64,000 nucleotides of DNA, taken from the NCBI RefSeq assembly GCF_964019385.1, contig NC_088645.1, positions 6,833,175-6,897,174 of the forward strand, in the 5' to 3' direction. The position numbers and the translations under genes are program-made. A model generated the notes under the pieces. It saw nothing but the letters and a program-made list of their open reading frames with translations, had not been told where the DNA came from and ran no database searches. Source of the DNA: Sycon ciliatum. Taxonomy: Eukaryota > Porifera > Calcarea > Leucosolenida > Sycettidae. Below are positions 4,333-56,921 of the stretch, piece by piece; position 1 is the first letter of the stretch, and each line of letters starts with the position of its first letter.

Positions 4333-6862
4333 TTAACCCTTTGTGAGTCCACTGGTTTCGGAGAAAATGACCAAATTTTCCATTCCGACAATAATCCCCT
4401 GTAACTCCACAGTTTTTGAGAATATGTAATTAGAAGTTGTGTTTTTCTGAATGGAATCGTTCGGCTGAATCCAAAAAACTATGTTAGAATGTTGCCATGG
4501 TTACCAATGTTGCCATATTAGGCACATATTGTCATAATCAAGTGTATAGCCGCGTTATTTACAGAGCGCACCATAGGAAGGAAATGAAACCATACTTTTA
4601 TGTACAAATATACAGTAGACAAGATAGAAACTCACAGCACTGAGATAAGATATCCTTCACAAGAAGTGGCGTGCATGGTAAGCGGCGTAGCAGTCGTGGT
4701 CGCTCGTGATGTGGAGGTGAACATCGCACGTAGTGCAGTAGGTTACACACTGGTGCTGCTTGTTACCCACTTCTGTGCAGTTTCTGCAGTTCTTCCTTTT
4801 CCTCACTCCAGGTATGTGAAGCTGAGCAACAGGAACCTGGACATCCTGCGGAACAGGCACTGGGCGATACGAGCGCTTCGGTGGCGGTGCATGCTCATCA
4901 ATCGATGACAGCTGCCGGATGAGGTTACAGCGGAAATCCGAGTGCTGCAAGTTGCATCGTCGACTTATCACCCCTGGATGCTGGCTCTGCCACAAGTGAA
5001 AGAGGCGGTATGCATTGACAGCGCACACGTCGACCATATCCAAGAAGAGACTCTTCCAGTATTTCTTCGTTTTGCGAAGCACACGGTGCGTTTCGATCAG
5101 CTGATCGAACGTGTCGACTCCACCCATGCTGCTGTTGTAGTCTCTGATGCACATTGGCCTCTGCACTTCCATTTGCTGGTGTGCACCATCAATCTTGACA
5201 TTTCTTGTTACTGTGTCATGCTCATGGCCCTGATGTATGTTGCTGTACATTGACACACACCGCTTGTCCTTCCATTGCTGGTACAGGTGATCTCCGTTGC
5301 GAACATAGCGTGTTGCACCTCGCTCTGCATGTTTCTCGAACTGTTTCATGTCGGTCCGCAATACGGCTGGAAATCCAGTGCGGTTCGCGCGGACGGTGCC
5401 AACCAACAATATTTGCTTGGTACGAAGAGATGTGGCCAGGGTTTCGGAAGTGTAAAAATTGTCCGTGTAGATCACACTTCCGGCGCGCACGTCACTGACC
5501 AGCCGCATCACCACAGCATGAGTCAGGCCATTTTCACCTCCAGGTTGCTGGCCTGTGTAAACTTCAAAGTTTATAACAATGGAGCTTTGGGCGTCGCAGG
5601 CAGCGAAGACCTTGAAGCCCCATTTGACGGGCTTTTTGGGCATATACTGCGTAAAAGGAGCGCGTCCCTTGCACTTGACCATGCGCTCGTCAACACTAAC
5701 GCACTTGCCAGGGATGAACAAACGCTTGCAGGCCGCCTGCAGATGGTCGTGAAGGTATCGCACCTTACGAAGTCGATCATTTATATCCTCTGCCCTGAAG
5801 TCCACAATCTTGATGAAGCACATCAGCGCTAAGTACCTCCGGTAGGTTCGAATCATGCAGCGTGCATAGTTTCCGTTGTACAACGACGTAACGCGCCAGT
5901 AGTCCCTCGTCGCAGGCAGAGGATGAAATCCCTGGAAGAAGAGAAATGCAAGGAGGCCGTAAAACTCATTACGGTTGGTCTCCTTCCACACACCATCCGT
6001 CTGGTACGTCTTTTTTTCAGCGATATGCTCGTGCGCATACAAATTTGTAAACTTGACAATTGAATCCACAACTTCGTCCGGGAAATATAGTTTGAAGAAA
6101 TCAAGTTCACATGTTGGAGCGAAATTATCAGGTAGGTTCAAACCAGTGCCAGTTATGTTGAACTCAGGTGTATTGGTTTGCAGCTGGTCAACATCATCAT
6201 AGCCACTACAATTTTCGTACTGTATACCACGTCCTCGTCCTTGCCCTCTTGCAGCTCCGCGTCCTCGCCCTCTTGCAGCTCCACGTCCTCGCCCTGTCGC
6301 AACTCAATGTCCTCGCCCTGTCGCAGCTCCACGTCCTCGCCCTCTTCCACGCGCGGGGACACCTACTGCTTGGCCTCTGCCTCGTCCAGCGCCACGTCCA
6401 CGAGCAGCGACGGGAACAGGAATAGCGATATCGTCAGCCGAATCGGATCCTATTTGCTCCAAGTCGGAAAAGAGATCGTCATTCAGGCGATCTTCCTCGT
6501 CAGACGAAATAAAATCGTTGTCCGAGTCGCCTACCTCGTCGCCTGAAGAGCAAGCGATATCCTCTACTGGGAGATCTGCTTGGTCCGCGTCTTGTATTAG
6601 GCGAAGCGCCTCGTCTGCATCCATCGCTGGATAAGTCCAAATTCTAATTTTGACATAATTGCAAAGGCTCTTTCAAAGCGTGCTATCAAAAAAAATTTAG
6701 TGGCGACCTACATCATGTTTAGTACCTACGTCACGGAAATTTTCTCAGGTACGCGGTGGTGAAGTCTCGGCGCGATGCGGTAAACCAGTCAAGCGCGACG
6801 ATCAAAAATGTGACGCGCATTTGAAACGAGCGAAATCGCTCGTTGAGCGCACAAAGGGTTAA
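4333..6862 (-). mobile_element. piggyBac DNA transposon, nearly intact, with TTAA target duplication
   Basis: TTAA at 4333-4336 is followed by CCCTTTGTG. At the other end CACAAAGGG is followed by TTAA at 6859-6862. This gives a 2522-bp element (4337-6858) with a perfect 9-bp terminal inverted repeat and the TTAA duplication that defines piggyBac. The right subterminal region (about 6826-6848) holds a hairpin-forming CGAGCG/CGCTCG pair. The only gene is the minus-strand transposase. The exact TTAA flanks and intact catalytic residues indicate a young copy. Confidence 0.95.
4657..6624 (-). pseudogene. piggyBac transposase with one premature stop in an RG-repeat linker
   Basis: A single frame runs from ATG 6624 to the stop at 4657, 656 codons, with one in-frame TGA at 6306-6304. 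The N-terminal ~105 residues are acidic (Asp/Glu/Ser-rich) and then Arg-Gly repetitive. The stop lies inside a repeated GRGRGAA unit; comparison with neighbouring units shows a Gly codon changed to TGA. Downstream is a DDE_Tnp_1_7 domain. Counting from codon 6141, the likely catalytic Asp residues are D151 (SVDERM), D227 (YTDNFY) and D343 (GGVDTF), all present. The C-terminus is a Cys/His-rich ribbon (CRNC...CTTC...H...YHARH), as in PGBD4-like proteins. An alternative reading is a functional 494-aa protein starting below the stop, but no good ATG context was seen there. Confidence 0.9.
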
Positions 6863-7358: not shown

Positions 7359-17536
<10,178 letters not shown>

Positions 17537-27420: not shown

Positions 27421-27475
27421 GTCAAAATCGAATGCATAATTCGAAGTACGTGACTTGTGAAGTCCAGAGTGTGCA

Positions 27476-28600
27476 ATGAAAAAGTTTGTCCGGAAGATAA
27501 CCACCCCCAGTAACGCTGGCCGTGAAAAGGGTGGCTCTTCACGCAGTTCATGCAGTAGTGATGTCTCCGGGGAACCGTCTCCCCCTGCCCCAGGAGCTCA
27601 TAAACGTAGAGCTGAGAGCCCAACGGAGAGTCTCGCCCCAAGCGAAATTGACAACCCGTCCCAAAGCCGACGAGCTGGAGCTGAGAAGACAGCTCGCAAA
27701 CCACTGACCAGCCTGACACCAGATCGTCAAGCCCAGTGCGCCGGAGTGTCAGAAGGTCCTGGCGATAGTGATGCTGTAAGGCAGATCAAGGGCCTCTTCG
27801 AGACGTTTCAAGGGCAATTTCGATCGGAATTCAAGAACATCATCGAAGAGACCCTGGGACCACGACTGGACAGCCTTGAAAAGAGGCTTGACGAGCAGCG
27901 CCAAGACATCAACCGCTTGTCAGCGGAGAACCGTAGGCTGAAGGCAGCAGTAGAGAAATGTAATGACGATGTTGGCAAGGCGGACAATGGCGCCAAGTCC
28001 GCCATTGTCGAGATGAAGAAAACATTTGCCGACATCACTGCCAGACATCCTGCCGCCAGTCCAAATTCTGCTGCAACCTCCAAATACGGACTGTCTGAGG
28101 ACACACTGCGTGACCTTGTTGCGGAGGCCAGTGAGCAGCAGAACAGAGTAAACAATGTCATCCTTCGCGGCGTACAGGAGCTCCCATCGGAGAACCTGTC
28201 TGCCATAATCGGCACCCTCGCCCCACAACTCGCTCCAGAGGACATCAAATCTGCAGCCCGGCTTGGCCCCAGCCATTCATCACGGCCACGGGATGAAACA
28301 TCTAGCTCACGTGCTGGGGCAAAACCAGCGCCTCGTCTCGTGCGAGTGGTGTTGTCCCCACAGGGGAAGAATTTACTTCTACGCAACAAAACGTCAGCAC
28401 AATACAAAGGAGACAACGTCTACATCCAACACGACCTCACCCGACAAGAACAACGACGACGAAAGGACTTAGTCCCGAAGTTTCGAGCTCTTCGCGACAA
28501 AGGTGTACGATGCCACCTCCCCCGTGACAAGATTATAAATAATGGTGCACCGCTGTCATCAGACGACATCACCCGTCTCCTCAACACAGTCACCCAATAG
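27476..28600 (+). CDS. LINE ORF1 protein, coiled coil plus RRM-like domain
   Basis: A 374-residue protein with a Ser/Pro-rich basic N-terminus (1-90). A coiled-coil helix lies around residues 100-185 (ETFQGQFRSEF...LEKRLDEQRQDINRLSAENRRL). A domain follows with VNNVILRGVQEL and a basic C-terminal part (RLVRVVLSPQGKNLLLRNK, DLTRQEQRRRKDLVPK). This layout matches L1-type ORF1p RNA-binding proteins: trimerising coil, RRM, C-terminal domain. It ends at TAG 28598-28600. The ORF2 frame continues immediately in the same register, so readthrough could make a fusion. Confidence 0.85.
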   Translation: MKKFVRKITTPSNAGREKGGSSRSSCSSDVSGEPSPPAPGAHKRRAESPTESLAPSEIDNPSQSRRAGAEKTARKPLTSLTPDRQAQCAGVSEGPGDSDAVRQIKGLFETFQGQFRSEFKNIIEETLGPRLDSLEKRLDEQRQDINRLSAENRRLKAAVEKCNDDVGKADNGAKSAIVEMKKTFADITARHPAASPNSAATSKYGLSEDTLRDLVAEASEQQNRVNNVILRGVQELPSENLSAIIGTLAPQLAPEDIKSAARLGPSHSSRPRDETSSSRAGAKPAPRLVRVVLSPQGKNLLLRNKTSAQYKGDNVYIQHDLTRQEQRRRKDLVPKFRALRDKGVRCHLPRDKIINNGAPLSSDDITRLLNTVTQ

Positions 28601-31519
28601 GATACTGCCAGGGCATCCCCTCAAACGTCAGCACGAAAGCTAAGTATCGCTCACCTTAATGTATGTAGCCTGTATAATAAATTACATGAAATTGAAGCAC
28701 TCATGCATGCTCACGATTTAGACATATTAACGTTAACGGAAACGTGGCTATCCGACAGTGTACCTGACATATGTATTACAGTACCTGGATACACCATGCA
28801 TAGACTTGATCGGAACTCAAAGAGAGGAGGTGGTGTCAGTATATACGTAAGAGAATGCTTCGGTAATCGAGCACTACATCACTCCTCTCCCATTGAAGCC
28901 CTTGCAGTACACGTGAACATTCACCCCCAGCCTCTCACTATCCTCTGTGCATATCGAGCTCCAACAGTACCTGTAGCATTTTGGCAAACCTTATCTAGCC
29001 TAACTGATGACATACTGGATTGTACACCGGCCTCCTCTGCGTGCATAATTCTAGGCGATTTCAATGTCAATGTCCAAGACCCTAGTCACGCACATTACCC
29101 TCACCTACGAACATTCTGCCATGATTTTGATCTCCGAAACGTTGTCACGTCACCAACTAGATTCCCTAGTGCAACAACCATAGACCTAGCACTGATCTCA
29201 AGCTCTTCCTCCACCACGTCTACTTCAAGACCAGGCAGGGATGAACTGATTTACAAAGACTGCAATGTTATTCCATGTGATATTTCCGATCACCAACTTG
29301 TTTGTGTGAACTACAATATCCATGCTACCACCAGCACGCTCAAGACAAACAGACAGGTACAAGTACGAAAGCCACCGCTGCGTACGTTGAAGATTAAGCA
29401 ATTCCAAGAGACAGCTGCTAAACATATGTCTACTCTCCACCAGCAGATCACATGCAGTTCATCACAGATGTCTCTAGATAGTTATACTGAACACTGGCAG
29501 GATGCAGTCAGTAATGCATTGAATGAGTACTGCCCACTAAAGACTGTTAACGCCAAGAAGAGCTATACTCCATCGCCTTGGGTAGACGATGAGCTCCGGC
29601 AGACTTTATTCAAGCGTAAACGAGCACACCGTGCAATGATAAAACGTCCTGATCGCTCAGACCTGCTGCAACAATTCCGAACTCTACGAAGACAATGTAA
29701 ACTTTTAACTAGGAAGAAACGGTCTACATACTTCCAGCAACAACTAATCTATCATCGAAACCACCCAAGAGAGCAATGGAGTGTCATGAACAATCTACTG
29801 GGTAGAATTAAAATCAACCAGGAACCTGCTGCCGAAGTAGCCGACATCACAAAGACATTTACAGACGTTGTCAACGATACATCACTTTCTGGCAGTACAC
29901 TACGCACTCCTAATGGCCCTGTATCGGAATACTCCCTGACACAGTTCACACCAGTCACTGTTCCACAAGTCCAACTCCATATCCAGAGAATGAACAGTCG
30001 TAAAGCCACAGGACCTGATAACATCCCCGCCCAGGCCTACAAGCTCATCAAAGATGAGATCGCCCCATCTTTAGCCAAACTATTTACCAAGTCTCTTACG
30101 TCTGGCGATTTTCCATCGACATACAAACTAGCAAACGTGCGGCCTATCTACAAGCGTGGAGATAAGTCAGTCCCATCCAACTATAGACCAATATCACTCC
30201 TGTCCCACATGTCTAAGCTACTGGAACATATTGTACACGACCAACTAATGTACTATATCTATAATGCACCACCACCACTGTTACCCCTACCTGCTGAGCA
30301 ATTTGCCTACCGCAGAGGCCACTCCTGCGAGGACTTGCTCACTCCCGTGATCAACGACTGGATGCTCTCCTTGGACAATGGTGATTATGTCGTAGCTGCC
30401 TTTCTAGACATGTCTAAGGCATTCGACACAGTTAGTCATGAAGTTCTACTGAGTGAACTTCTGGAGATCGGTGTCGGTGGTACTGCCTTGCAGTGGTTCT
30501 GTAGCTACCTTACCCACAGGAAGCAACGTGTGGTCACCAAGACACAGCAAGGCCTTACATATAGCAGCAACAGGGGGGTTCCGCAAGGCTCCGTCTTGGG
30601 GCCCTCTCTCTTCAATCTGTCAGTCAGAAAGCTCCCATCTGTACCCCAGCACTGCAAGGCTCGACAGTACGCGGACGACGTCTCCCTGTACAAAGCTGGC
30701 AAGAACGTCAAACAATTGTGCAAGGAGTTGACAGAAGACATTGTGAAAGTGAAAGAGTTCTTGGCGGCCAGAGGCTTACTGCTGAATCCTTCCAAGACGC
30801 AGTTTGTCGTGTTCAGGTCAAAGTGCAAGCCCCTTGACCCTAGCGTGGCTCTACAGCTGGGTGAGGTCACAATCAACCCTAGTGCACACATTCGATACCT
30901 TGGCATTATACTCGACGAACATCTCTCCTTTGGAGAGCACGTTAGGCAACTAGAGCGGAAAGTTGGAAGTAAGTTAGCCATGTTCAGAAAGGTCCGAGAT
31001 CACATGACGGTAACTGCAAAGCGTGCATTTTACATTTGTTCCATTCAGACAGTACTCGAGTATGGGAGCAACTCATTTGCTCACTGCTTGTCAGTAACTC
31101 TGCATGACCGTCTAGTCCGTCTTAGTAATAGAGCTCTACGCATTGTGTTCAGTATGCCTCGTTTTTCTGACGTATCCCTTATTAATGCACGCCATCACAT
31201 TCTCCCTTTGTCTGTGCGCTATCAGTTCAAACTCTATATCTTAGTGTTTCGTGTCCTGAATCAGGTAACTACTACTCTCCTTACTGATTGCTTTTGCCTT
31301 CGTTCTACTTCTACTCGTACCAATTCCTGCACTCGCTCCCAGGTATCTTCGTCTGTGACTCTACCCAAGGCTAAAACTCGTTTCGGTCTCTTTTCAGTTT
31401 CTTTCATCGGTTCCGACCGTTGGAATGCCCTCCCTGCTGCAGTCCGCTTATGCTCTTCCCTGCATCTATTCCGTAATTCAGTACTTTCATTTCTAGGGTA
31501 CCCTGTAAGAAGGCCTTAA
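28601..31519 (+). CDS. LINE ORF2: apurinic-type endonuclease and reverse transcriptase
   Basis: An open frame of 973 codons including the stop, in the same frame as ORF1. The first ATG is at 28703, but the conserved endonuclease start (KLSIAHLNVCSLYNK) lies upstream of it at about 28637. Initiation by an ATG inside the window is therefore unlikely, and readthrough or reinitiation at the ORF1 TAG is the simpler model. The endonuclease shows LTETWL, GDFNVN and SDHQLV. The RT shows FLDMSKAFDTV (motif A), GVPQGSVLGPSLFNL (B) and QYADDVSLY (C). The C-terminus has LEYGSNSFAHC and ends GYPVRRP, which is also the ending of the decayed copy. Confidence 0.92.
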   Translation, partial: DTARASPQTSARKLSIAHLNVCSLYNKLHEIEALMHAHDLDILTLTETWLSDSVPDICITVPGYTMHRLDRNSKRGGGVSIYVRECFGNRALHHSSPIEALAVHVNIHPQPLTILCAYRAPTVPVAFWQTLSSLTDDILDCTPASSACIILGDFNVNVQDPSHAHYPHLRTFCHDFDLRNVVTSPTRFPSATTIDLALISSSSSTTSTSRPGRDELIYKDCNVIPCDISDHQLVCVNYNIHATTSTLKTNRQVQVRKPPLRTLKIKQFQETAAKHMSTLHQQITCSSSQMSLDSYTEHWQDAVSNALNEYCPLKTVNAKKSYTPSPWVDDELRQTLFKRKRAHRAMIKRPDRSDLLQQFRTLRRQCKLLTRKKRSTYFQQQLIYHRNHPREQWSVMNNLLGRIKINQEPAAEVADITKTFTDVVNDTSLSGSTLRTPNGPVSEYSLTQFTPVTVPQVQLHIQRMNSRKATGPDNIPAQAYKLIKDEIAPSLAKLFTKSLTSGDFPSTYKLANVRPIYKRGDKSVPSNYRPISLLSHMSKLLEHIVHDQLMYYIYNAPPPLLPLPAEQFAYRRGHSCEDLLTPVINDWMLSLDNGDYVVAAFLDMSKAFDTVSHEVLLSELLEIGVGGTALQWFCSYLTHRKQRVVTKTQQGLTYSSNRGVPQGSVLGPSLFNLSVRKLPSVPQHCKARQYADDVSLYKAGKNVKQLCKELTEDIVKVKEFLAARGLLLNPSKTQFVVFRSKCKPLDPSVALQLGEVTINPSAHIRYLGIILDEHLSFGEHVRQLERKVGSKLAMFRKVRDHMTVTAKRAFYICSIQTVLEYGSNSFAHCLSVTLHDRLVRLSNRALRIVFSMPRFSDVSLINARHHILPLSVRYQFKLYILVFRVLNQVTTTLLTDCFCLRSTSTRTNSCTRSQVSSSVTLPKAKTRFGLFSVSFIGSDRWNALPAAVRLCSSLHLFRNSVLSFLGYPVRRP

Positions 31520-31628
31520 GCCTGTGGGGATTGCCCTATCAAAAATTTGATAATAATAATAATAATAAGTACGAAAAGTGCGCCGGTTGGATAATTCGAA
31601 CCCAGTCTTCGTACAGAATTGCTGTTTA

Positions 31629-33039: not shown

Positions 33040-33542
33040 TCTTGTCACTGTCAGGGCAAAATACATTAGAGGGGAAGTCTAGTGAGTCAGGATCAGAAGT
33101 GTCCTGTGGGTCTAGCCCTCACTGCCTCAGCCCCTCTGCGGCAAGTGTAAGCCTGAAAGTCCGACGGAAAGTCTCCACTGCATTGCGGACGCGAGCACTG
33201 ATAACACCTGTAGTCAGTCAGGCGCGCCGAAAGTGGTCCGCAAATTGGGCAGCGCTCCTGTAACAGCTAGCGCAAACGACTGTGCGCACCAGGATCTGGT
33301 GGCGAACCTTCAAGTGCTCTTCGCGGACTTCAAAAAAGAAATTCGTGCCGACCTCACGACGATCGGGAAAGAACTGGTCCAAGCTCTAGACAAACGCCTC
33401 ACAGCTGCCGAGAAGCTCATCGCGGAGCACGCTATCGAGCTCAACCGTCTCAATGCCGAGGCACGCAAACTAAAAGGCCTTGTTGAGAGACAGGTCCAGA
33501 ATGTATCAAAATTTAGGTACCATTGCCTTTGGGTTATCCGTC

Positions 33543-33576
<34 letters not shown>

Positions 33577-34189
33577 TAGATGATGGAGCTCGTTCCGCCA
33601 TTACGGAACTTGAGAAGAAGCTGGAGTGACGTGACGTCTAGACAGCCAGACGCCACCACTGTTACCCAACAGCAACAAATGATTAATGGCAGGTACTGCC
33701 AAAATCGGCACCGCGAATGTCTCCCTCATACGGGACCTGGTGGAAGAGGCCAGTGAACAGCGAAGACGTGCTGATAATGTGATCCTGCGCGGGATCACGG
33801 AGAACACAGGTGAAGACCTGAAAGTGAAACGCACTGTTGCTCAACTGGTGCCGGATTTGGACACCAGTGATATCCTCTCAGCGGAGCGCATCACTCCAAG
33901 ACGCCAAACGGAGCAGTCGCGCCTGGTGCGCGCCACCCTCACCAGCCAGGGCAAAACTAAACTGATGCGCAACAAGACAAGGGCCAAGCATCATGATGTA
34001 AATGTGTACGTGTCACACGACTCGACCAGGGGAAAACAGGAACGCCGATGTGCTTTGGTACTACCCCAGTACAAGGCCCTGCGCTCTAAAGGCATTGTAT
34101 GCCATCTACCAAAGGACACAATAACCCATAACGGTAAGAGCCTCACCCCCAGTGATGTTGAAGGTCTCCTAAAAGTAAAAGACCAATAG
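33040..34189 (+). pseudogene. ORF1 of the decayed LINE copy
   Basis: Pieces in two frames are recognisable. The N-terminal KPESPTESL region is near 33150, and the coiled coil (LVQALDKRLTAAEKLIAEH) lies in the frame 33233-33583. The C-terminal RRM-like part is at 33686-34189 (DNVILRGITEN, LVRATLTSQGKTKLMRNK). A ~60-bp insertion ending in (AAT)n at about 33510-33575 interrupts the coil region. The terminal stop is TAG at 34187-34189, in the same context as in the intact copy. Confidence 0.8.
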
Positions 34190-37069
34190 GATATTGCCAG
34201 GGTACCCCAGCCTCCCAACTCATGCATTGTAACTGCTCCAACCTCATGCATTGTAATTGCCCACATCAACATTTGTAGTCTTTTTAGTAAATTGAATTAC
34301 GTCTCCTCCCTATTGCATAAGTATAACATTGATGTCCTTGGTGTTACGGAGACGTGGCTATCTGATGCTGTAACTGACAATTGTGTACACCTGCCGGGAT
34401 ATGACCTCCATCGCTTAGACCAATCATGCAAGAAAGGCGGAGGAGTATGCATTTATGTTCGTGACGAATTCAAGAGCAGAATGATTAGTCTTACCCATGA
34501 CACTGAAGCACTGTCTGTCCACATTTCCCTACCACAACATCCACTGACAGTCATCTGTGCATATCGCCCTCCTACACAGACAGTCAATTTCTGGCAGAAG
34601 CTCACCGAAATGACAGATGACACACTTCAGTCTTCACCACCAAAGTCTACTCTCATTGTCGTTGGTGATTTCAATGTCAATGTACAAGACAGTCACCATC
34701 CACATTACCACCATCTGGAAACATATTGTCATGATCTAGGCCTCCGTAACATAGTCAATACACCAACGAGATTTCCCAGCCAATCCACTCTAGACTTAGT
34801 CCACTCCTAGTACCGAATACACTGCAATACATCTCACCTAATAGTCAAGCACATGCCGACCTCTATCTCCATACCTGCTCAGTAGAACCGTGCGACGTGT
34901 CCGACCACCAACTTGTAACTGTACAACTATGCACCTCCTCACTACCAATCGTACGCTCCCAACATCACTTCTACCCTCGCAAACCACCCATTCGTACGCT
35001 ACCTATTTGTGAATTCCAGACAAGTGTAGCTCAACAAATGGCCAATCTACAAACTCACAACGATGACCTCCAGAGCTTGCAGGACAAGATCACTTCTTCT
35101 CTAGACCAATACTGCCCGCTGGTACAAGTACGTGCTACCAGGAAACAGATGCCGCAACCCTGGGTCGATGATGAACTCCGTCAACTGCTTTTCCGAAGAA
35201 AACGTGCCCACCGTGCCATGACCAAACACCCAGACTGTGCACGGCTTGTCCAGAACTTCAGAGGCCTTAGACGGCAATGTAAATTGCTTACTAAGAAAAA
35301 GCGCTCTGCGTTCTTCCAGCAACAACTGCATGACCATCGACGCAATCCATGTGCCCAGTGGTTCATTCTCAACACTTTACTTGGAAGGAAGAAGATCTCG
35401 CAAAATCCTGCTGCAAGTCTGCATGATATCACAACTACGTTTGCCAAGATCATTACAGATCCTTCACTCAACTCACAAATCCCTCTGACAAGTCCACATG
35501 GGCCACTGCCTCAACACTCTTTCTTGGAGTTCACCGCTGTGACAGCCGATGACATCCTGGCTCTCCTACGACGTCTTGACAACCGCAAGGCCACAGGTCC
35601 TGAGTTGATCCCTCCCACCATCTACAAGATACTTGGAGAGCAAATATCAGCACCACTTGCACGGCTCTTCTCGTCCTCACTCTCCACCGGTGAGTTTCCC
35701 GAATGCTACAAATTTGCACATGTACGTCCCATCTACAAGAGAGGTGACAAGTCCCGATGATTGCTAGCAACTACAGGCCGATATCACTGTTGCCCCAGAT
35801 GGCTAAGCTTCTGGAGACACTGGCACATGAACAACTCATGGACCACATCTACACTGCTCCGAATGCGACACCACTACTCCCTCCGGAGCAATTTGCGTAT
35901 CGGAAACACCACTCCTGTGAAGACCTACTGGCGTGTGTAGTGAATGACTGGCACACATCCCTTGATCAGCCGGGACACTTTGTTGTTGCCGCATTCCTGG
36001 ACATGTCCAAGGCATTTGACTCGGTAAACCATAGCATGCTCCTACAAGAATTGACAGACATTGGCGTGGGAGGTACAGCTTTGCACTGGTTCCTTACATA
36101 CCTACAGAACCGGGAACAGCGCGTCGTCACGAAGACAGCTCAGGGGGACACATATGCAGGAAACAGAGGTGTGCCGCAAGGCTCTGTCCTTGGGCCCTCT
36201 TTATTCAATTTTATCAGTTCGTAATCTTCCCTCGGCAACGAAGCACTGCAAGGCACGGCAATATGCAGATGATGTTTCCCTCTACAAAGCTGGCAAGGAC
36301 CTAAACCAAATCACACTCGATCTCGCTGAGGATATTACCATTGTTCGTGATTTCCTGGCTGCACGAGGTCTCTGCCTCAATCCTGACAAGACTCAGTTCA
36401 TAATCTTCAGGTCGAAGTTCACACCTTTGACCCCTGACGTCAGCCTTCAACTGAACAACACCTCAATTGCCCCTTTGCCTGAAGTGAAGTACCTTGGCAT
36501 CGTTTTGGATGAACACCTTACTTTCTGTGCCCACATCGCCCACCTTGGCTTGAGCGCAAGATTGGAAACAAGATCGCCGTGTTCAGGAAGATACGACACC
36601 AACTCACGGAGCACGCCAAGAAAACATTCTACATATCGTCCATCCAATCAGTTCTCGAGTAGATCTACGGGTCGAATGCGTTTGCTCACTGCCTTCGTGA
36701 GGGTCAATATGAGCGCCTGGTTCGCTTGACTCGGTAGACGTGCCTTGCGCACGGTGTTCAACCTCACTCGCTTCAACAGCATCAGTGCACTACAAAAACG
36801 CAACCATTTACTCCCACTCGCCGCTCGGTATCAGCTCAGACTTTTTGTTGCGCAGTGCATCGTCACATACAAACTCCTGTACACGCTCTCAAGTTTCTGC
36901 AGCCCTTACTCTTCCCCCTGCTTCAAATCGGTATGGTCTTTTTTCTCTTAGTTTTCTAGGCTCAGATCGTTGGAACTCTCTACCTGCTGACATTCGCCTA
37001 TGCACATCTGTTTCTCGCTTCCGTAACCTTGTATTGGCACATTTAGGGTACCCTGTAAGAAGGCCTTAG
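34190..37069 (+). pseudogene. ORF2 of the decayed LINE copy
   Basis: The frame continues in register from the ORF1 TAG and is open to 34810 (endonuclease: VTETWLSD, GDFNVN). It is disrupted at 34805-34896, open 34897-35760, and shifted at about 35757. It is open again to 36224 (FLDMSKAFDSV, GVPQGSVLGPSLF), shifted once more (QYADDVSLYKAGKD at about 36255), and has further stops near 36660-36740. It ends GYPVRRP at 37069. It has at least three frameshifts and several nonsense codons, so it is clearly non-functional. Confidence 0.85.
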
Positions 37070-37288
37070 GCCTGTGGGGATTGCCCTATCAAAATAATAA
37101 TAATAATACGAAGTAGTGGTTGCGACTTCGGCGATAATTTGTAAGAAAGGGTTTGCTCCCCACACCGGAGCTCGCGCTATTCCGCCGACTTTACTTGACA
37201 CTTGACTGACTCACGACTGCCATCCAGAGCACACGAGAAGTCCATCGAACCTTCGACTCGGCAAACCTGCAAGAAAGCACCACTCCCT

Positions 37289-37334
37289 GCTCAATACACA
37301 GTGTTTCGGGGAATTCACCCCTCATCAGTTGAGC
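37289..37334 (-). ncRNA. Type-I hammerhead ribozyme motif (left arm)
   Basis: Exact inverted copy of the motif at 37665-37710. Stem I is at 37334-37329 / 37294-37289, the core at 37328-37322, GAAA at 37307-37304, and the predicted cut follows the base at 37295. Both ribozymes would be transcribed outward from the palindrome centre. Confidence 0.85.
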
Positions 37335-37603
37335 TTGAGTAGGCTGAGGAAGATTGTGCCTGAAGAGCACCACTTATATAGTGCTCTCCAGGCACAAACA
37401 TCACCAGGGATACAAACTTACAGAGACGCTCCGCTTCCAGCGCGACAAACACCTCGTGAACACCAGATAGCAGCGTGAGTCAGTGTCGCTCCTGGACGGT
37501 GAGACAGACGTCGAGGACCCTGGTGCTGCTATCTGGTGTTCACGAGGTGTTTGTCGCGCTGGAAGCGGAGCGTCTCTGTAAGTTTGTATCCCTGGTGATG
37601 TTT

Positions 37604-37643
37604 GTGCCTGGAGAGCACTATATAAGTGGTGCTCTTCAGGCAC
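37604..37643 (+). promoter_or_regulatory. TATA-like sequence in the loop of a 15-bp hairpin (right arm)
   Basis: GTGCCTGGAGAGCAC (37604-37618) pairs with GTGCTCTTCAGGCAC (37629-37643) with one mismatch, and the loop is TATATAAGTG. TATATAA (37619-37625) would place a Pol II start about 30 nt downstream, just before the hammerhead at 37665. The mirror copy is at 37356-37395 on the minus strand. The promoter role is inferred. Confidence 0.45.
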
Positions 37644-37664
37644 AATCTTCCTCAGCCTACTCAA

Positions 37665-37710
37665 GCTCAACTGATGAGGGGTGAATTCCCCGAAACACTG
37701 TGTATTGAGC
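37665..37710 (+). ncRNA. Type-I hammerhead ribozyme motif (right arm)
   Basis: Stem I GCTCAA (37665-37670) pairs perfectly with TTGAGC (37705-37710). The core CTGATGA is at 37671-37677. Stem II is GGGG/CCCC with a TGAATT loop (37678-37691), and GAAA is at 37692-37695. Stem III ACA-CTG-TGT (37695-37703) leads to a GTA cleavage triplet, so the predicted cut is after A37704. All conserved core bases are present. The very short stem III is like that of metazoan retroelement hammerheads and may favour dimeric cleavage. Confidence 0.85.
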
Positions 37711-37872
37711 AGGGAGTGGTGCTTTCTTGCAGGTTTGCCGAGTCGAAGGTTCAATGGACTTCTCGTGTGCTCTGGATGGCAGTCGTGAGTCAGTCAAGTG
37801 TCAAGTAAAGTCGGCGGAATAGCGCGAGCTCCGGTGTGGGGAGCAAACCCTTTCTTAATAATAATAATAATA

Positions 37873-38158
37873 CTGACAGTTAGTTTAGACCATTGTCGCG
37901 TCGAGGAAGACATGAACTCCAAGGAGCTAGAGGTGCGTCACTACCTCATTCCAAACAATCGCTGCAAATCGCTTAAATAAAACGTCGCTAAACTTGACAA
38001 TGGGAAAACGCCAAAATTAATAATTTCAAACTTGGACTTCACGGAGAATTTCAAAGTTTTTAGGAAATTAGAGGCCACATGCCACGTCAGATATGACGGA
38101 GTTGACAGCCCAGAAATTGCGTAGAGGATCTACGCGTTCGACAGCCTGCGAAAGTGTA
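37873..38158. other. No gene recognised
   Basis: Unassigned sequence between the palindrome tail and the TA-flanked MITE. No open frame of note. Confidence 0.5.
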
Positions 38159-38160
38159 TA

Positions 38161-38370
38161 CTGTAAATATACAAAATTTCGGCGCTGCAAAATTTCGGCA
38201 CTTCACGATTTTTGACATTTCGGCGGCGATGTATTTTCGGCGTGGGGTAGAGGGCATGGTATTACGACAGATGCTGTGAAAAATTTCACCGGCGTTTTAA
38301 TTTAGGCGTTTTGGGTCGGTGCCGAATATAGCCGAAATTAAATAGCTGCCGAAAATTTGTATATTTACAG
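38161..38370 (-). mobile_element. Tc1/mariner-type MITE, 210 bp (copy 2, inverted)
   Basis: It has the same TIR and TA flanks as the copy at 16131-16340, in the opposite orientation and with few differences. Part of an older hAT-type terminus (AACCGTTTGAGCCCTA, about 38475-38490) follows it; its partner end was not found. Confidence 0.85.
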
Positions 38371-38689
38371 TACTTTGCAACGACCTGATACTTGAAAAAT
38401 TGACTGAAAAGTTACTTATACCGTTATCTTTATCGGTTAGTTAATTCTTCGTAACCGGTCTGCAACTGATCGGACTAACCGTTTGAGCCCTAATTAATTA
38501 TTTATATTCCACACTTTTATTATCCGATGATCTTGTTTTGTTTGCTATGAGTATGATTCCGTGATTTTCTGTTGGTTGCTTTTCTGCTGTGCGAATAAAT
38601 GCAGTGTCCACACGCGTGTGAACTAAAAAATTAAAAAGGTGCAGAATCCTGAGACCTGGTGTAGATCTACCCGTACTTCCGTAGTCATA

Positions 38690-51479: not shown

Positions 51480-54400
51480 CAGGACAGGACAGGTGTGTGT
51501 GTGTGTGTGTGTGTCGCATCACATAATACACACAAAAAAACGGTAAAACACAGACTAAGCGGATGGGCGCATGGATACACGTGTGGATAGATGGGTAGAT
51601 GTGTGGGTATGTGGATGAATGGGTTGACAGATGGATAGGTAGATGGATGGATAGGTAGATGGATGGATGGGTAGATGGATGGATAGGTAGATGGATGGAT
51701 GGGTAGATGGATGGATGGGTAGAGGATAAAATTAGTTTGATTGATGAGGTTTGTATTGATAGCGGTCTAGGTGTGTACTTTCCAGATTCATAAGTTGGTA
51801 TTCAAGTGTTATTGACATTTTCATTAGAGACCAGAACAGTGAAAGCTGACAATGGCTGATGGTGTTAGTGAAATGGATACTGATATTGCGGCTAGGTTAT
51901 TGCGGCTAGGTTTACCATATAAACTTGAGCCTCCCGAGTTGGGTGATCTGTTGCTTTGCATCGTCGAGTTGTAGCAAGACCGGTATGTCCAATTGTCTTA
52001 CTATTACTACAACAATTGCAGTCTCGTCATCATCCAGTAACAGTCGGCATTCTTTGTTGCCGTGGGACATATCTCGTGCTCATTTTCGCTGCGCTTTCCT
52101 TCCCCTCTTTGGAGCTTTCCTAACCTGAGCCACCCAAGTTGGAAGGTTATTGGTTTGCAACTCGTAGAAGTGTTTGAGCTACAATGTAGGTGTCAGGTCG
52201 TTGAATGTCTCACTACTCCTTGTCTTTGTGTCCTGTTGTCGCGCAAGCTGACTGTATAGTATCTGGTTACATTGGTGGACAGTTGGTCACAACTGGTAAC
52301 GTTTCGTCCTTGAGAAGGGAACGAAAACGTTCGGTTACTAAATTGGCTTTACTTGACTGTGTGGATTGCGTCGGTGCTGACACTTCTTTCCACATTGTAG
52401 CGGATTAGCACTTTGTTAGTCACCCGGCTTGATTTGTATTTCTCACTTTATGTGCGAAAGTTGTCACTGTTTTGTCATTGTACAGTGGTCCCTCTATAAT
52501 CCGGCACCATTTGTGCCACGAAAATCTGCTGGATTAGGGAGGGTGCTGGATTAACAAATCTGATTTACTGCTGCAATGTGCATGAAGAGGACATTTTGGC
52601 TACTGAAAATTGTGCTGGTTTATCGAGGGTGCTGGATTATAAAGTGCCGGATTAGAGAGGGACGACTGTAGTACCGTGCTCCCAACTGTAGTAATATTCA
52701 TAGTTTCACTGTGTAGTTGGCGCCACTAGCACTATCTTTTTTTAAAGTGCTATTTTGGTCAATGCTCTGACTGCCAAAGTGCCTGTTATAAGGACATGCT
52801 TGCAACTTTGTTAATCCCTATTGTATTCGACTTGAAAAGTAATGGTACGAAAGGCCTAGTCGAAACTATAATGGCTTCTGTGCTTCGTGTGCTGGTTTGC
52901 ATCCCCTCAACCAAAAATCTATTTCTCACTTTCATTCTCACAGTCATAGTAATGTCGCGTATTAAAGGGGAACTCCGGTCCAAAATCACCCCCATTTTTT
53001 ATTGCGGAATCCATTAGAGTATGTCGTAAGTGGTAGAATGGCGAAAACCGGAAGCTTCTACGACAAGGATAACATACCTAAATTACCAATTGCAATTTTC
53101 CATATTTGGCACGAGGGGGCCCCCTCCCACCCTGTGACGTAAAACGTTCTCAGCCCGGTCCACTCAGATGAAATTTTCAAATAATTCAAGCAAGAATGAA
53201 AAGTCCTTGGCCATTGTTGAAGTGCTTGTTGTTCTGTGCCATGCCCGATTTATTGTCACGACTCGCTGCTGCGTCTCTGGATGCAACAATGTCACGAAGA
53301 AAGAGGCGCCTGCGGGCTGTCGTAGCACGGCTTTCCTCTGGCTGACGCGAACCTGACGACAGCTTGGCTATGGAGAGTATGTTGGAAGGATTTTTCTCCG
53401 ACGAAAAATAATCGTGTCTGCACTGAGCATTTCACTGAGATATGCTATGAAAGAGATTTCCAACAAGAGTTTGCACAAAGCATTGGTGGCTATAAGCAGA
53501 AGCAGCAGCGACGCTTGAAGCCAGGGTCTCTGCCATCCTGAAACTTGGCGGTGCATGTCATACTAATAGTTAGTAGCTCCTCTACCTCTGCTGCCAGCAA
53601 AAGCAGACCATCTTCGATTTACTTCCAGGAACGTGAGCACGATGAGGTAAGTGAACGGCATGATTTTGTGCCGTCCAGAACGTAGCTCTAAACGACTACA
53701 GTCCTACTCAAAGTCCTCTACTCAAAATCCTAGTCAGTGAAGTCGAGAATTGATGTAATGTACATGGAACGTTATCATGTGTGTTATTTCGGTTCTCTTT
53801 ATCTGTAAGTTTCCATTGCGTTACTTTCCGGTTGCAGCTACACTGCCACAAATACAAGGTACAGTATGATTTGTAGTCTGGAAAATTTCCATGCTGTCAT
53901 ACTGAAGTGGGCACCAAGACGTGTCCACTTTTCGTACAATGGCATGAGAGCACGGGTACAGTCGGCATGTCTGTCCCACAATGCCAATATAGGGAGAGCG
54001 CACGCCAAAACCAAGGAGGGTGTGCTCAGGTACAGGCTGGAATACACCAAGAGCACAAAGTGGCCAAGAAGCTGCACGACAATGTCCTGCAACTTCTTGA
54101 AGGACCTGTTGAACGATGTGCATACAACCATTCTCGGCATTCGCCACGGCACCGGCACAACCCCATGCTCCCGAACACAGTATAGTCTTGTGCCATTGTA
54201 TCTGTCAACTTTACCAGATTGTTCATGCAGCTGCATTGGTGCAAAGCATGCGCCCACCCGAAAACACAAATATTGCCCGAGTCAAGAATAGTTATAAATC
54301 GTGTCTGTCAACTGTTTTCTACATTCTGCATGCACATGTACCAATGATTATGTGAACGTCAACCAGGCCAAGAAGCATTATCATCATCATCATCATCATG

Positions 54401-56921
54401 TCCAACTGCTTCCTCAAAGCCCCAGTGCGCATCTGCATTGGCTTCTGGTACAGCTGCTTTATCTTCGATACCACGCAAGACGGTATCACACGCCGCTGCT
54501 TGCGTCCAAAGTATCCATGGGTGAACCATGTGTATTGTCTATACGCCACATGTCTCCAAATCCTGCACAAAACAGTTGGAGAGATGTAGATACACATACC
54601 ACGAGTGTCTTCATGATTGTGTAAAAGTAAATAGTTTCAGTGTAAATAGTTTCGGATTCGAATTAATATTTCTATGGGCTACTATACTAAAGACACTTTG
54701 GCCTTTTTTCAAATTTACATCACTTTTACACACAGTTGAAACACTTACAGTGCTAGGAATAGTATGAATGAAAGACATCGTTGTACCAGTATAATTATAT
54801 TGGCATGGGTGCAATAGAACTTCATGATTGTGTGATGGAAGTAACACGTTAGTTGGTGAATTTGAATACTGTACACAAAATCATTGCACAACACTTCCCA
54901 TCTACTTTGTACCGGTACATGAAACATGGAAAGAAAGGAAATAATGAAACCGATTCAGTGTATCCTCACCTGTTTGACCACGGTCCACACCTTGCCCGAA
55001 ATTCTTCGAAGGAAAGCAATGCCACCTCGAGCACTGATTTTTGCAGGCAAACAACAGCAAACTCTGAGTGCTGCGTGACGCACTGCAGCCCTTCCTGCTC
55101 GCCGCGTTTACTGAAAGCTGCAGGAACCTCCCAGCAACAAGTCGACTCGACCTCGCTCCACATCATGCTGCATTGTCCGCAACGGCATCAAGCAGTGCTT
55201 CTCACGCGAGCACTTGCAACCAAAGCGTTCTCTTCACGTTCATCTGTTTTGTAGTCTCAGAAATATTACTTGTAGACAGTTTCGCAGACGCTGATGCGCG
55301 CTTCTGCTCGAACCTAAAAGGCCTCGGTGTTGTTGAATCCGAAGTGGCGTCCACCTCCACACCTCCCGTGGTCTCCTCTTCCTCCAACATGATGATCGAA
55401 TGAATACTAGTACAAGGGTTATTGATTGAAGAAAAACAGTGAATACCTTTTTCAAAATTTCTGCAGGTCTACCATTTGAATAAAAAAATTTGGAGGTCAC
55501 TGAGAACGTTTTACGTCACAGGGTGGGCGGGGGCCCCCTCGTGCCAAATATGGAAAATTGCAATTGGTAATTTAGGTATGTTATCCTTGTCGTAGAAGCT
55601 TCCGGTTTTCGCCATTCTACCACTTACGACATACTCTAATGGATTCCGCAATAAAAAATGGGGGTGATTTTGGACCGGAGTTCCCCTTTAAAGCCTGGCT
55701 TATTCATGTAGAAGCCGATGTCAGGGCTAGCCTTCTATTCACATCAGGCTTCTTGTCAAACCAGGTATTTCTATGTGTGTCAATACTAAAACCAGGTATT
55801 TCTATGTGTGTCAACAGTAAAACCAGGTATTTCTAATGTGTATCAATACTAAAACCAGGTATTTCTATGTGTATCAATACTAAAACCAGGTATTTCTATG
55901 TGTATCAATACTAAAACCAGGTATTTCTATGTGTATCAATACTAAAACCAGGTATTTCTATGTGTGTCAACAGTAAAAACCAGGCTTATGTGCCAACAGT
56001 GTACATGTATCTTGAAAATCAGGCTTCTATTCAAAACAGGCTTCTGTACGAGATAGGCTTTAGTACACTGTACTATAGTGGACATGGAAATCCAGTCGAA
56101 TGACCGGGGCCGGCGCCCTCAGCGCGTACAGAACAGCGCATGCATGCAGTGCACATGTTGATCCGATGCGACCAGCGAGTTGCAGCGCGTAAATGCATGC
56201 GTATGCCGCTAACCCATGGCTGCACGGCCAGCGCCCTGGGGCCGCTGGACGTGCGACCGGATTTCCATGTCCACGACAGTACAAGATACTACGGTATCAC
56301 ATTTGTAACCTTCAGCATTGTCACTAAGACAGTGTTACTTTTCTTTGGTTGTTGAAACTTATTATCGGGTTATTATGGTACTAGATTTGGGTTTCGCATG
56401 TGACATAATCAGCGGCAAATGGCGACACCGAGTTCCTTCCTTTTCCGGTATGGTTGGCAAGTAGGGACTCGGGTTGATTGATTTCCACCCCCAGGGGGTT
56501 GAAATCAAGAAAACATACTGCCGGAAGCATGTGCTTGTCTCGTGCCCGGATTGCGCACCGCATGCGAAATTCTCACCAAAGTAATCACGCGAACATTCAG
56601 ATCTAGAGAAATGGACTTCAGCCCGGATATCAGCTATCAACCCACCTTTCTTTTTTTCTTCATCCGGTACCGCTATTGTACCGACTTTCAACCGGGTTGA
56701 AAACAAAATTAATTCTCGTGTAAAACACGAACTGGACGTCAGGCATGCACGTCACTCGTACGAGTACTCTTCAGTCCCCGGCCCCCGAGCCAAAACATTT
56801 TGAATCTTCCTACTCCACTTGCACTGTACCTTGAGTCAAGAATGCCGTATAATATCATAGACGAGCCGACCAGGACTGCCATGTTCGTCACCAGTCGAGC
56901 AGACAGCGACAGGATACCCAT
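46786..56921 (-). CDS. TMEM179/TMEM179B-like four-transmembrane protein, five exons, complete
   Basis: Exons (minus): 56921-56830, 51397-51203, 49441-49307, 47869-47785, 46944-46786. Every junction is GT/AG and the phases fit (2, 2, 2, 0), giving 221 codons plus TAA. Four hydrophobic helices lie at about residues 11-29, 65-88, 101-127 and 171-193. Between helices 1 and 2 is a loop with two cysteines (GDCLLWG..., SNCRY), matching the GRC(P/L)L(Y/F) and ...C(Y/R)F pattern recalled for TMEM179/179B. The last helix begins [12 protein letters not shown], as in the family's AQFG-WASW block. The tail is cytosolic-like ([12 protein letters not shown]). The family's function is not established. The introns carry a THAP transposon and MITEs (intron 1) and a foldback element (intron 3). 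Assignment rests on remembered family sequences, so orthology is less certain than the gene model. Confidence 0.8.
46972..47028. repeat. (CA)n tract upstream of the TMEM179-like exon 5 acceptor
   Basis: Interrupted CA repeat. In the transcript it is TG-rich and lies within about 80 nt of the GTCTAG acceptor at 46945. Confidence 0.9.
47066..47410 (+). repeat. SINE-like dispersed repeat, ~340 bp (copy 1)
   Basis: It aligns over its full length with 59366-59728 in the same orientation. Shared blocks include GAAAGATGACTCAATTGGC, GGTGCAGAAAAAGGATTGAC and GAGTGGATCTGATACAAGCT. Pol III boxes are not convincing, so the SINE label is tentative. It is in intron 4 of the TMEM179-like gene. Confidence 0.65.
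47888..47981. repeat. (GA)n microsatellite upstream of TMEM179-like exon 4
   Basis: On the transcribed strand this is a (CT)n tract ending about 20 nt before the TTCTTAG acceptor, so it doubles as a polypyrimidine tract. Confidence 0.9.
48130..49283. mobile_element. Foldback-type element with ~385-bp inverted arms, TTAAAGGGGAAG termini
   Basis: The left arm starts TTAAAGGGGAAGTTAAGCC and the right arm is its complement, ending at 49283. Arms are about 48130-48793 (minus the insert below) and 48899-49283. Each arm also holds an internal direct repeat (GTAGTCTTT-GG-GCTGAGTCGA). TTAA could be target duplication or part of the terminus. Non-coding. The right end lies only 24 bp from the 5' splice site of TMEM179-like exon 3. 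Confidence 0.85.
48242..48516. mobile_element. hAT-type MITE, 275 bp, nested in the foldback element
   Basis: Termini TAGTGGTG and CACCTCTA are flanked by exact 8-bp duplications CTTTATTC (48234-48241, 48517-48524). The uninterrupted right arm of the host foldback element has a single copy at the matching place, which proves the insertion. The interior is full of CGGGTACCCG-like motifs. Confidence 0.95.
49485..49560. repeat. CA-rich microsatellite upstream of TMEM179-like exon 3
   Basis: Interrupted CA/CACG tract. TG-rich in the transcript, about 45-120 nt before the CTTTAG acceptor. Confidence 0.9.
49885..50161. mobile_element. Tigger-type MITE, 277 bp
   Basis: CAGTCGACTC...GAGTCGACTG termini lie between TA dinucleotides (49883-49884, 50162-50163). 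Subterminal TAACGAA/TATAGCGAA motifs are typical of Tigger/pogo non-autonomous elements. Confidence 0.9.
50471..50570. repeat. Two identical 50-bp tandem units
   Basis: Unit TAAGCGCACTCCAAGAGGTC plus 30 further bases, repeated exactly, with partial copies on both sides. It contains the palindrome CCAAGA-GGTCTTGG. Confidence 0.9.
50599..50776. mobile_element. Tigger-like MITE, 178 bp, imperfect ends
   Basis: Left CAGTGGAACCTGTCTAAG and right complement CAGTAAAACCTGTGTAGG. TA on the left (50597-50598) but CA on the right, so one duplication base has changed. Confidence 0.65.
50820..50930. repeat. 37-bp unit x 3 tandem repeat
   Basis: Three copies of GTACACACATTG(C/T)GGCGCTAG plus 16 bases, differing at one position. 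GC-rich. Confidence 0.95.
51408..51514. repeat. (GT)n microsatellite beside TMEM179-like exon 2
   Basis: About 70 bp of GT plus a second block after GACAGGACAGGACAG. In the transcript it is (CA)n ending about 13 nt before the GCAG acceptor at 51398. Confidence 0.95.
51600..51723. repeat. (GGAT/GGTA)n minisatellite
   Basis: Irregular TGGATGGATGGGTAGA-type units, about 120 bp. Confidence 0.9.
52483..52668. mobile_element. Tigger-type MITE, 186 bp
   Basis: CAGTGGTCCCTCTATAATCC and its near-complement at the right end, TA on both sides (52481-52482, 52669-52670). Repeated CTGGATTA motifs inside. Confidence 0.9.
53240..53548 (+). pseudogene. THAP DNA-binding domain, frame-disrupted
   Basis: The first half (RCCVSGCNN, about 53269-53295) gives the first Cys pair and ends at a stop at 53356. 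The second half, in another frame (about 53391-53543), reads [11 protein letters not shown] (C-x2-H) and ends LKPGSLPS, matching the C2CH and terminal motif of THAP domains. At least one frameshift separates them. Confidence 0.7.
53866..54291 (+). pseudogene. Transposase C-terminal block of ISL2EU type
   Basis: The frame contains [20 protein letters not shown] followed by [17 protein letters not shown] and [10 protein letters not shown]. This resembles a block recalled from THAP/ISL2EU-type transposases near their C-terminus. The upstream catalytic core is not found. The frame then continues to an unrelated end. Confidence 0.6.
55758..55975. repeat. 30-bp tandem repeat, about 7 copies
   Basis: Unit AAACCAGGTATTTCTATGTG plus TATCAATACT, with small variants. 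It lies just outside the THAP transposon. Confidence 0.93.
56073..56279. mobile_element. MITE of the CTGTCGTGGACATGG family, 207 bp
   Basis: TA target duplication (56071-56072, 56280-56281). The TIR is CTATAGTGGACATGGAAATC on the left and the complement of CTGTCGTGGACATGGAAATC on the right. The interior is GC-rich. It is in intron 1 of the TMEM179-like gene. Confidence 0.85.

Follow-up and report, generated by a model that had tools for sequence, protein, structure and literature searches.

A 747-bp stretch in the genome of the calcareous sponge Sycon ciliatum is probably one insertion of a non-autonomous hammerhead retroelement, an animal-type retrozyme, made by the integration machinery of Penelope-like elements (PLEs). 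The stretch lies within 64,000 nucleotides of contig NC_088645.1 (assembly GCF_964019385.1), which were analysed as a whole and are called the window here. The family to which this locus belongs has a unit of about 479 bp and a copy number of several thousand, occurs in tandem and head-to-head form, and has two preferred ends 34 bp apart that are paired asymmetrically. Its insertions lie in AT-rich targets between target duplications, the arms within one locus are nearly identical, and a PLE with a matching layout is present in the same genome.

Structure of the insertion in the window

The first-pass annotation of this DNA described a giant palindrome with two outward-facing hammerhead ribozymes. 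Comparison of the arms confirmed the palindrome: they are reverse complements across 332 bp, enclose a spacer of 50 bp, and are identical at 331 of the 332 positions without indels, the sole difference being at 37246 (C versus T). TA is found at both arm ends. Mapping of a 479-bp family unit, named M, identified the 33 bp to the left of the left arm and also the "spacer" as element sequence and placed the left limit of the element at 37110 (Table 1). On this mapping, the locus is a single insertion of a hammerhead retrozyme family with a unit of about 479 bp, and the palindrome is no unit of its own. The annotation had suspected an undescribed non-autonomous unit; the non-autonomous, hammerhead-bearing nature stands, but the palindrome as a defined unit does not, as its junction differs at every locus. 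The longest frame across the arms is 130 aa from stop to stop, in agreement with the absence of protein-coding capacity that had been noted. The outward promoters of the annotation are putative and go back to a TATA-like string (37619-37625).

Table 1. Coordinates of the insertion, its parts and its target in the window
Feature	Position	Strand	Basis or remark
Whole insertion, head-to-head retrozyme array, 747 bp	37110..37856		Mapping of the 479-bp unit M and flanking duplication
Tail-bearing block, unit M66-479, outer end at site A	37110..37524	- (sense)	Mapping of M
One-sided tail, from site A (M479) to site B (M445)	37110..37142	-	Mapping of M
Left arm	37143..37474	-	Arm comparison
Annotated "spacer", the 5' part (inner end) by which the left block exceeds the right block	37475..37524	-	Mapping of M
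Tail-less block, unit M114-445, identical with the right arm, outer end at site B	37525..37856	+	Arm comparison and mapping of M
Left hammerhead with extended stem I, cut expected at 37295/37294 (by arithmetic)	37277..37344	-	
Right hammerhead with extended stem I, cut expected at 37704/37705	37655..37722	+	
TATATAA, TATA-like string (putative promoter) 5' of the right hammerhead, inside a strong hairpin	37619..37625	+	Mirror copy in left arm
Target duplication, left copy, (AAT)5AC; the repeat blurs its length, and AC is possibly element-derived	37093..37109		
Target duplication, right copy, (AAT)5AC	37857..37873		
Decayed LINE (LINE-B), whose (AAT)n 3' tail is the target; 5' limit approximate, by eye	33067..37107	+	

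Other repeats and coding frames were also observed in the window. A 215-bp MITE-like repeat is present at 38159-38373 and 16128-16342 in opposite orientation (98% identical, 25-bp inverted ends), and a 192-bp inverted repeat pair at 52962-53153 and 55500-55691 is 99.5% identical and 2.3 kb apart. A 548-aa frame at 4657-6303 (minus strand) matches DDE_Tnp_1_7, a piggyBac-type transposase, with 252.7 bits, and a CACA repeat of 1.46 kb (9871-11326, 364 copies) is in frame with a reverse-transcriptase ORF (8347-11361, minus strand).

The hammerhead ribozymes

Each arm contains the core CTGATGA...GAAA...TA with a stem I of 6 bp, a stem II of 4 bp and a stem III of 3 bp, and in both hammerheads stem I extends past an AA/AGG internal loop. 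Using a strict descriptor (all core bases and 6/4/3-bp stems), two matches were found in the 64 kb, both at the arm sites; 200 dinucleotide shuffles yielded none. With two less stringent, nested descriptors, the window sites were the same two, and each descriptor matched once across 200 shuffles. The annotated type-I motifs, outward-facing and with full core and 6-bp stem I, were thereby recovered in each arm.

The annotation had named an Rfam covariance model scoring below threshold as a refutation of the motif. Taken literally, that test goes against it, since Rfam listed no hammerhead for the window at gathering score, or at E<=10 for subsequences of 1,201 and 121 bases. In addition, the minimum-energy fold (-21.9 kcal/mol, compared with -18.1 kcal/mol when the hammerhead pairs; z -1.51) does not contain the complete core. 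The Rfam result is outweighed by the genome census, in which a 40-nt hammerhead string with up to 3 mismatches gave 4,964 matches (2,511 forward and 2,453 reverse) and the reversed control gave none. The core is intact in 126 of 130 units, a sample that was partly picked for the exact hammerhead and in which variation is too low for covariation. Both type-I hammerhead cores can be regarded as real despite the Rfam result. The exact 39-nt hammerhead string was absent from the viral contigs.

Copy number and array form in the genome

The genome search covered 538,412,230 bases in 313 contigs. A search with one arm, as the annotation had proposed, resulted in tandem, single-orientation and inverted copies: at least 46 matches, including the two of the window, were obtained from the 40 of 867 candidates that were scored. 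Of these, 42 cover at least 330 of the 332 bases at 99-100% identity, and many are spaced 478-479 bp apart, which is the unit period; tandem arrays reach up to 6 units per side. The unit M (479 bp, GC 53%) is one real unit taken from the tandem locus L030. It was mapped on the window and on 70 further loci out of several thousand, 30 of them reached via arm similarity and 40 via the exact hammerhead, the latter being the first 40 of 59 clusters (our own grouping) on contig C1.

Counting arrays of at least 150 bp, 76 were present in these 71 sequences. The majority, 53, are head-to-head (minus block followed by plus block), 22 have a single orientation (14 minus, 8 plus) and one, at a locus edge, reads minus-plus-minus-plus, while simple tail-to-tail arrays were not found among the 76. 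The same picture was obtained for 100 exact hammerhead sites, whose neighbours within 1 kb form 16 head-to-head, 25 same-strand and no tail-to-tail pairs.

Inverted arms of the same locus are 99.5% identical (median 100%, 73 comparisons) and tandem units of the same locus 99.55% (82 comparisons), compared with 98.0% for blocks of different loci (7,502 comparisons). All junctions differ among the 37 non-redundant head-to-head arrays, indicating that the inverted form arises anew at each insertion and is not inherited. The likeness of the arms had been attributed to recent duplication or gene conversion, an explanation that is not supported; head-to-head copies are the commonest form of the family (53 of 76 mapped arrays). 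Both arms of a locus instead appear to have been copied from one RNA at insertion, which would account for their identity.

Arms that are identical at 331 of 332 positions could suggest a misassembly or a genomic inverted duplication unique to this locus. This is hardly credible given that 52 other head-to-head arrays were mapped, which differ in their junctions and have flanking duplications, and the census refutes it, barring a fault in the whole assembly. A DNA transposon of the foldback or MITE type, with long inverted repeats and flanking TA, has an equally negligible probability. The long inverted repeats and the TA at both arm ends of the window copy would suit such an element, but the family has tandem units, variable junctions, asymmetric ends and duplications of 10-14 bp. 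The constant inverted-repeat ends and constant structure of such an element are absent, as both ends and junctions vary, and the census refutes it for the family.

Outer ends, tail and inner ends

The outer ends of the arrays prefer two sites. Site A is unit position 479 (sense ...CTACTTCG), where CTTCGT is found in 36 of 47 scored ends, and site B is unit position 445 (sense ...CCCTTTCTT), for which ends at 436-455 were accepted. The 53 head-to-head arrays comprise 39 A/B, 3 A/A and 2 B/B pairs and 9 arrays with at least one other end, several of which are diverged subfamilies in which the match to M stops early. A/B pairing is therefore seen in 39 of the 44 arrays with both outer ends at a preferred site. 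Seven arrays that share both 20-bp flanks with another were dropped, a step that also removes unrelated arrays in identical microsatellites, and the 37 non-redundant arrays comprise 32 A/B, 3 A/A and 2 B/B pairs (P=4e-6 against independent choice). The C1 sample alone (n=24) contains 17 A/B, 1 B/B and 6 other arrays. The window array also obeys this pairing, as its left block covers M66-479 and its right block M114-445.

As a result of the A/B pairing, a tail of about 34 bp (M446-479) is present on one side only. An AC-rich stem-loop at the start site is a feature of PLEs; the retrozyme tail has a GAAGT...ACTTC hairpin with an AC-rich loop, the stability of which is not above that of shuffled sequences (230 of 1,000 shuffles). 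When the tail is subtracted, the tail-bearing block is the shorter of the two in 19 of the 32 A/B arrays, which excludes for those arrays that either block was copied from its partner.

This asymmetry bears on self-priming, in which the end of the template or cDNA folds back and one arm is copied from the other. Palindromic junctions of rotifer Penelope elements have been read as self-priming on an antisense template (Arkhipova et al. 2013, PMC3846280, in the text available), and near-identical arms within a locus are what this published inference predicts. The block lengths in the window (413 bp for the A block and 332 bp for the B block) are compatible with it, although length alone does not decide the matter there. 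On the other hand, copying in either direction does not fit the 19 of 32 A/B arrays, and the position of the tail-less end is constant (445) and corresponds to one of the two adjacent start sites that PLE biochemistry predicts. Self-priming is thus rather improbable as the origin of these arrays, and two priming events on one RNA are preferred because of this poor fit.

In the 37 non-redundant arrays, the inner ends of B blocks cluster at M82-99 (13 of 36) and those of A blocks at M398-438 (14 of 38). The two clusters differ in place and neither coincides with the hammerhead cut. This clustering is not accounted for by the PLE reading and counts against it. Near the cut at M294/295, only one of 74 inner ends was found (at 289, 5-6 nt away), with a further one at 296 in the redundant array L062. 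Since inner ends almost never lie near the cut, hammerhead-cut linear monomers seem unlikely as the usual templates, leaving circles or uncut multimers.

Target sites and duplications

A target duplication was scored when at least 7 bp long and located at, or not more than 6 bp from, both array ends. Such duplications flank 30 of the 37 non-redundant arrays, compared with 161 of 715 re-paired control flanks; the control value is raised by the large number of targets that consist of the same microsatellite, (AAT)n or (ATT)n. Seven of the 37 arrays (L013, L037, L039, L050, L060, L064 and L077) have no duplication of at least 7 bp, which also counts against the PLE reading. In ten arrays picked by eye because microsatellite sequence is scarce or absent in their flanks (L006, L012, L019, L021, L022, L029, L030, L033, L035 and L056), the duplications measure 10-14 bp. 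Array flanks are 86-88% AT.

The annotation had placed an (AAT)n tail on one side of the palindrome. In fact, (AAT)5AC is present on both sides, and the (AAT)n is the 3' tail of the neighbouring decayed LINE and thus target sequence rather than a tail of the element itself. The window contains two related LINEs (27451-31570 and about 33067-37107), which are 72% alike in their last 254 bp and both have (AAT)n tails. The first of these has a 7-bp duplication, AAGTACG, identified by eye.

A SINE-like element mobilised by a LINE, with (AAT)n as its own tail as in these two LINEs, is very improbable. Both LINEs end in (AAT)n and have TGTGGGGA near their end in common with the arm; however, the repeat belongs to the target, and other copies of the retrozyme are found in non-repeat targets. 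Without (AAT)n, the similarity to the LINEs is not above that of shuffles, either for the right arm (36 of 500 and 43 of 500) or for the unit end (44 of 500 and 64 of 500), and no 3' end common to the retrozyme unit and a partner LINE was found. Moreover, a head-to-head form with a one-sided tail is atypical of LINEs and not the usual outcome of their insertion. An early idea, a SINE-LINE pair with a common 3' tail, was ruled out, as CCCTTTCTT is internal to the unit and (AAT)n stands on both flanks.

Coding capacity and accidental protein frames

No ORF with a telomerase-like reverse transcriptase and a GIY-YIG endonuclease is present in 37110-37856, and the insertion is therefore classified as non-autonomous and not as a PLE. 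Protein-database matches to frames across the arms (37 and 149, with 120 listed) are accidental frames through other retrozyme copies, and these frames gave the first sign of inverted and tandem copies. Of the 149 distinct matching proteins, 14 match both unit strands, 8 wrap round the unit, 123 are single and 4 are unassigned. A few of the 14 (P0232, P0252 and P0268) run from sense to antisense, corresponding to tail-to-tail or neighbouring insertions, which did not occur as simple arrays in the genome sample. The entries P0121-P0269 are accidental retrozyme frames stored as predicted proteins, one cluster having 38 member sequences. A search of the genome_contigs collection with P0134 gave no confirmed match, and its match in a viral contig (L001, 27% identity) was taken as chance. 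Inspection by eye for Pol III A and B boxes revealed nothing convincing.

A Penelope-like element in the same genome

With the PF01541 (GIY-YIG) profile, at least 13 genome matches over the cut-off were found among the 150 of 944 candidates scored. One of them is L078 on contig C1, in which the GIY-YIG domain lies over the Pfam cut-off inside an 807-aa ORF. The motifs GLYPSIP and YIDDV in this ORF are taken by us to mark a reverse transcriptase, which Pfam did not report, and a PDB search with the protein gave no match. The element is flanked by inverted terminal repeats that are 96% alike and by a target duplication of 12 bp (GTTGTCTTCCTA/GTTGTCTTCCCA, 11 of 12 identical); an adjoining tandem copy of the target has the duplicated stretch once and resembles an empty site, as judged by eye. 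Only one outer end of L078 carries a tail, and its repeat contains a hammerhead-like core; Rfam reported no hammerhead at E<=1 on this locus.

The 36-nt tail of L078 ends in CTACTTCGT, a terminus of 9 nt that it has in common with the retrozyme tail. Beyond these 9 nt, the two tails are weakly alike (35 of 2,000 shuffles were as good), which counts against a shared machinery, as does the lack of any long match of the L078 repeats to M. A relative about 97% identical, L079 (C13:218800-222300), has the same tail end. L079 also has its own coding region repeated internally in inverted orientation over 847 bp (99.3%), a head-to-head form in an autonomous element.

These two elements resemble the retrozyme in their 12-bp duplication, one-sided tail, inverted repeats and tail end; they differ in that an 807-aa protein is coded and the terminal repeats are unrelated in sequence to the retrozyme. 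From this layout, an L078-type PLE is a candidate for the mobiliser of the retrozyme.

Comparison with known retrozymes and Penelope-like elements

The annotation had pointed to PLEs and retrozymes as closest relatives, and this is supported. Judged by sequence, the family resembles a retrozyme in its parts and a PLE in its manner of insertion. Metazoan non-LTR retrozymes, as far as the accessible text of Cervera and de la Pena 2020 (PMC7229834) describes them, are likewise non-coding tandem repeats; their type-I hammerhead has helices of canonical size, they occur in thousands of copies, and their duplications exceed 4 bp. The sponge family has this type-I hammerhead with full core and three helices, forms tandem dimers to multimers and lacks coding capacity. 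Its length of 479 bp and GC content of 53% lie outside the published range (about 170-400 bp, GC below 50%), and it is therefore classified as a variant. It also differs in that most arrays are head-to-head, while the word "inverted" is absent from the text available of that paper. Plant LTR retrozymes (PMC4918200, in the part available) are also non-autonomous hammerhead retroelements, but their LTRs, 4-bp duplications (as given in PMC7229834) and type III hammerheads are absent here.

GIY-YIG PLEs, according to the available portions of PMC3846280 and PMC11167929, have head-to-head inverted repeats, tandem copies, a one-sided tail of 30-40 bp, short target duplications, AT/ATT-rich targets, a TATA string and a hammerhead. 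Rotifer Penelope elements have been described with head-to-head inverted pLTRs, one of which may carry a 31-bp tail, and with duplications of 8-10 bp (PMC3846280). In the sponge family, head-to-head and tandem copies, a tail in the 30-40-bp range at one end and between two start sites, duplications and AT-rich targets are all found. Differences from these PLEs are the lack of an ORF and the canonical hammerhead helices instead of the minimal PLE form, and the A/B end pairing is quantified here.

Proposed mechanism and implications

The lizard PLE protein has been reported to cleave and extend both target strands, with a preference for ATT, and its cDNA starts at two neighbouring positions inside the RNA, which delimit the genomic "tail" (PMC11167929, 2024, in the sections available). 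In the mechanism proposed here, the hammerhead may cut multimeric retrozyme transcripts to unit length, and the pieces are possibly circularised. A PLE endonuclease would make a staggered cut of about 12 bp in the target. Each of the two 3' ends would serve as a primer for reverse transcription within the retrozyme RNA, with one start at site A (about 479-482) and one at site B (445). The cDNAs would converge, sometimes through several units, and be joined at a variable point, giving a head-to-head array with the tail on one side.

A more specific version can be put forward tentatively, with the odds somewhat against it. Each insertion would be a twin-primed rolling-circle event, in which the two strands are cut about 12 bp apart by a dimeric PLE protein. 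A single circular hammerhead RNA would be the template for both 3' ends, one priming at A and the other at B, and the one-sided tail would record a fixed division of labour between the two protein subunits. If this is true, a PLE would be the mobiliser of an animal retrozyme, and self-priming would be replaced as the origin of inverted Penelope copies.

The mobiliser of animal retrozymes has been left open in the literature: the available text of PMC7229834 names "LINEs or PLEs among others", with PLEs as "a strong candidate", and the mobilising enzyme was still open in a December 2024 review (PMC11722881, as far as available). No earlier report of a PLE insertion signature on a retrozyme was found among titles and the beginnings of abstracts, in a literature largely outside the subscription journals. 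The presence of such a signature on a retrozyme points structurally to the mobiliser of animal retrozymes. In addition, the pairing of start sites A and B, one at each outer end, bears on the origin of inverted copies and one-sided tails in Penelope elements.
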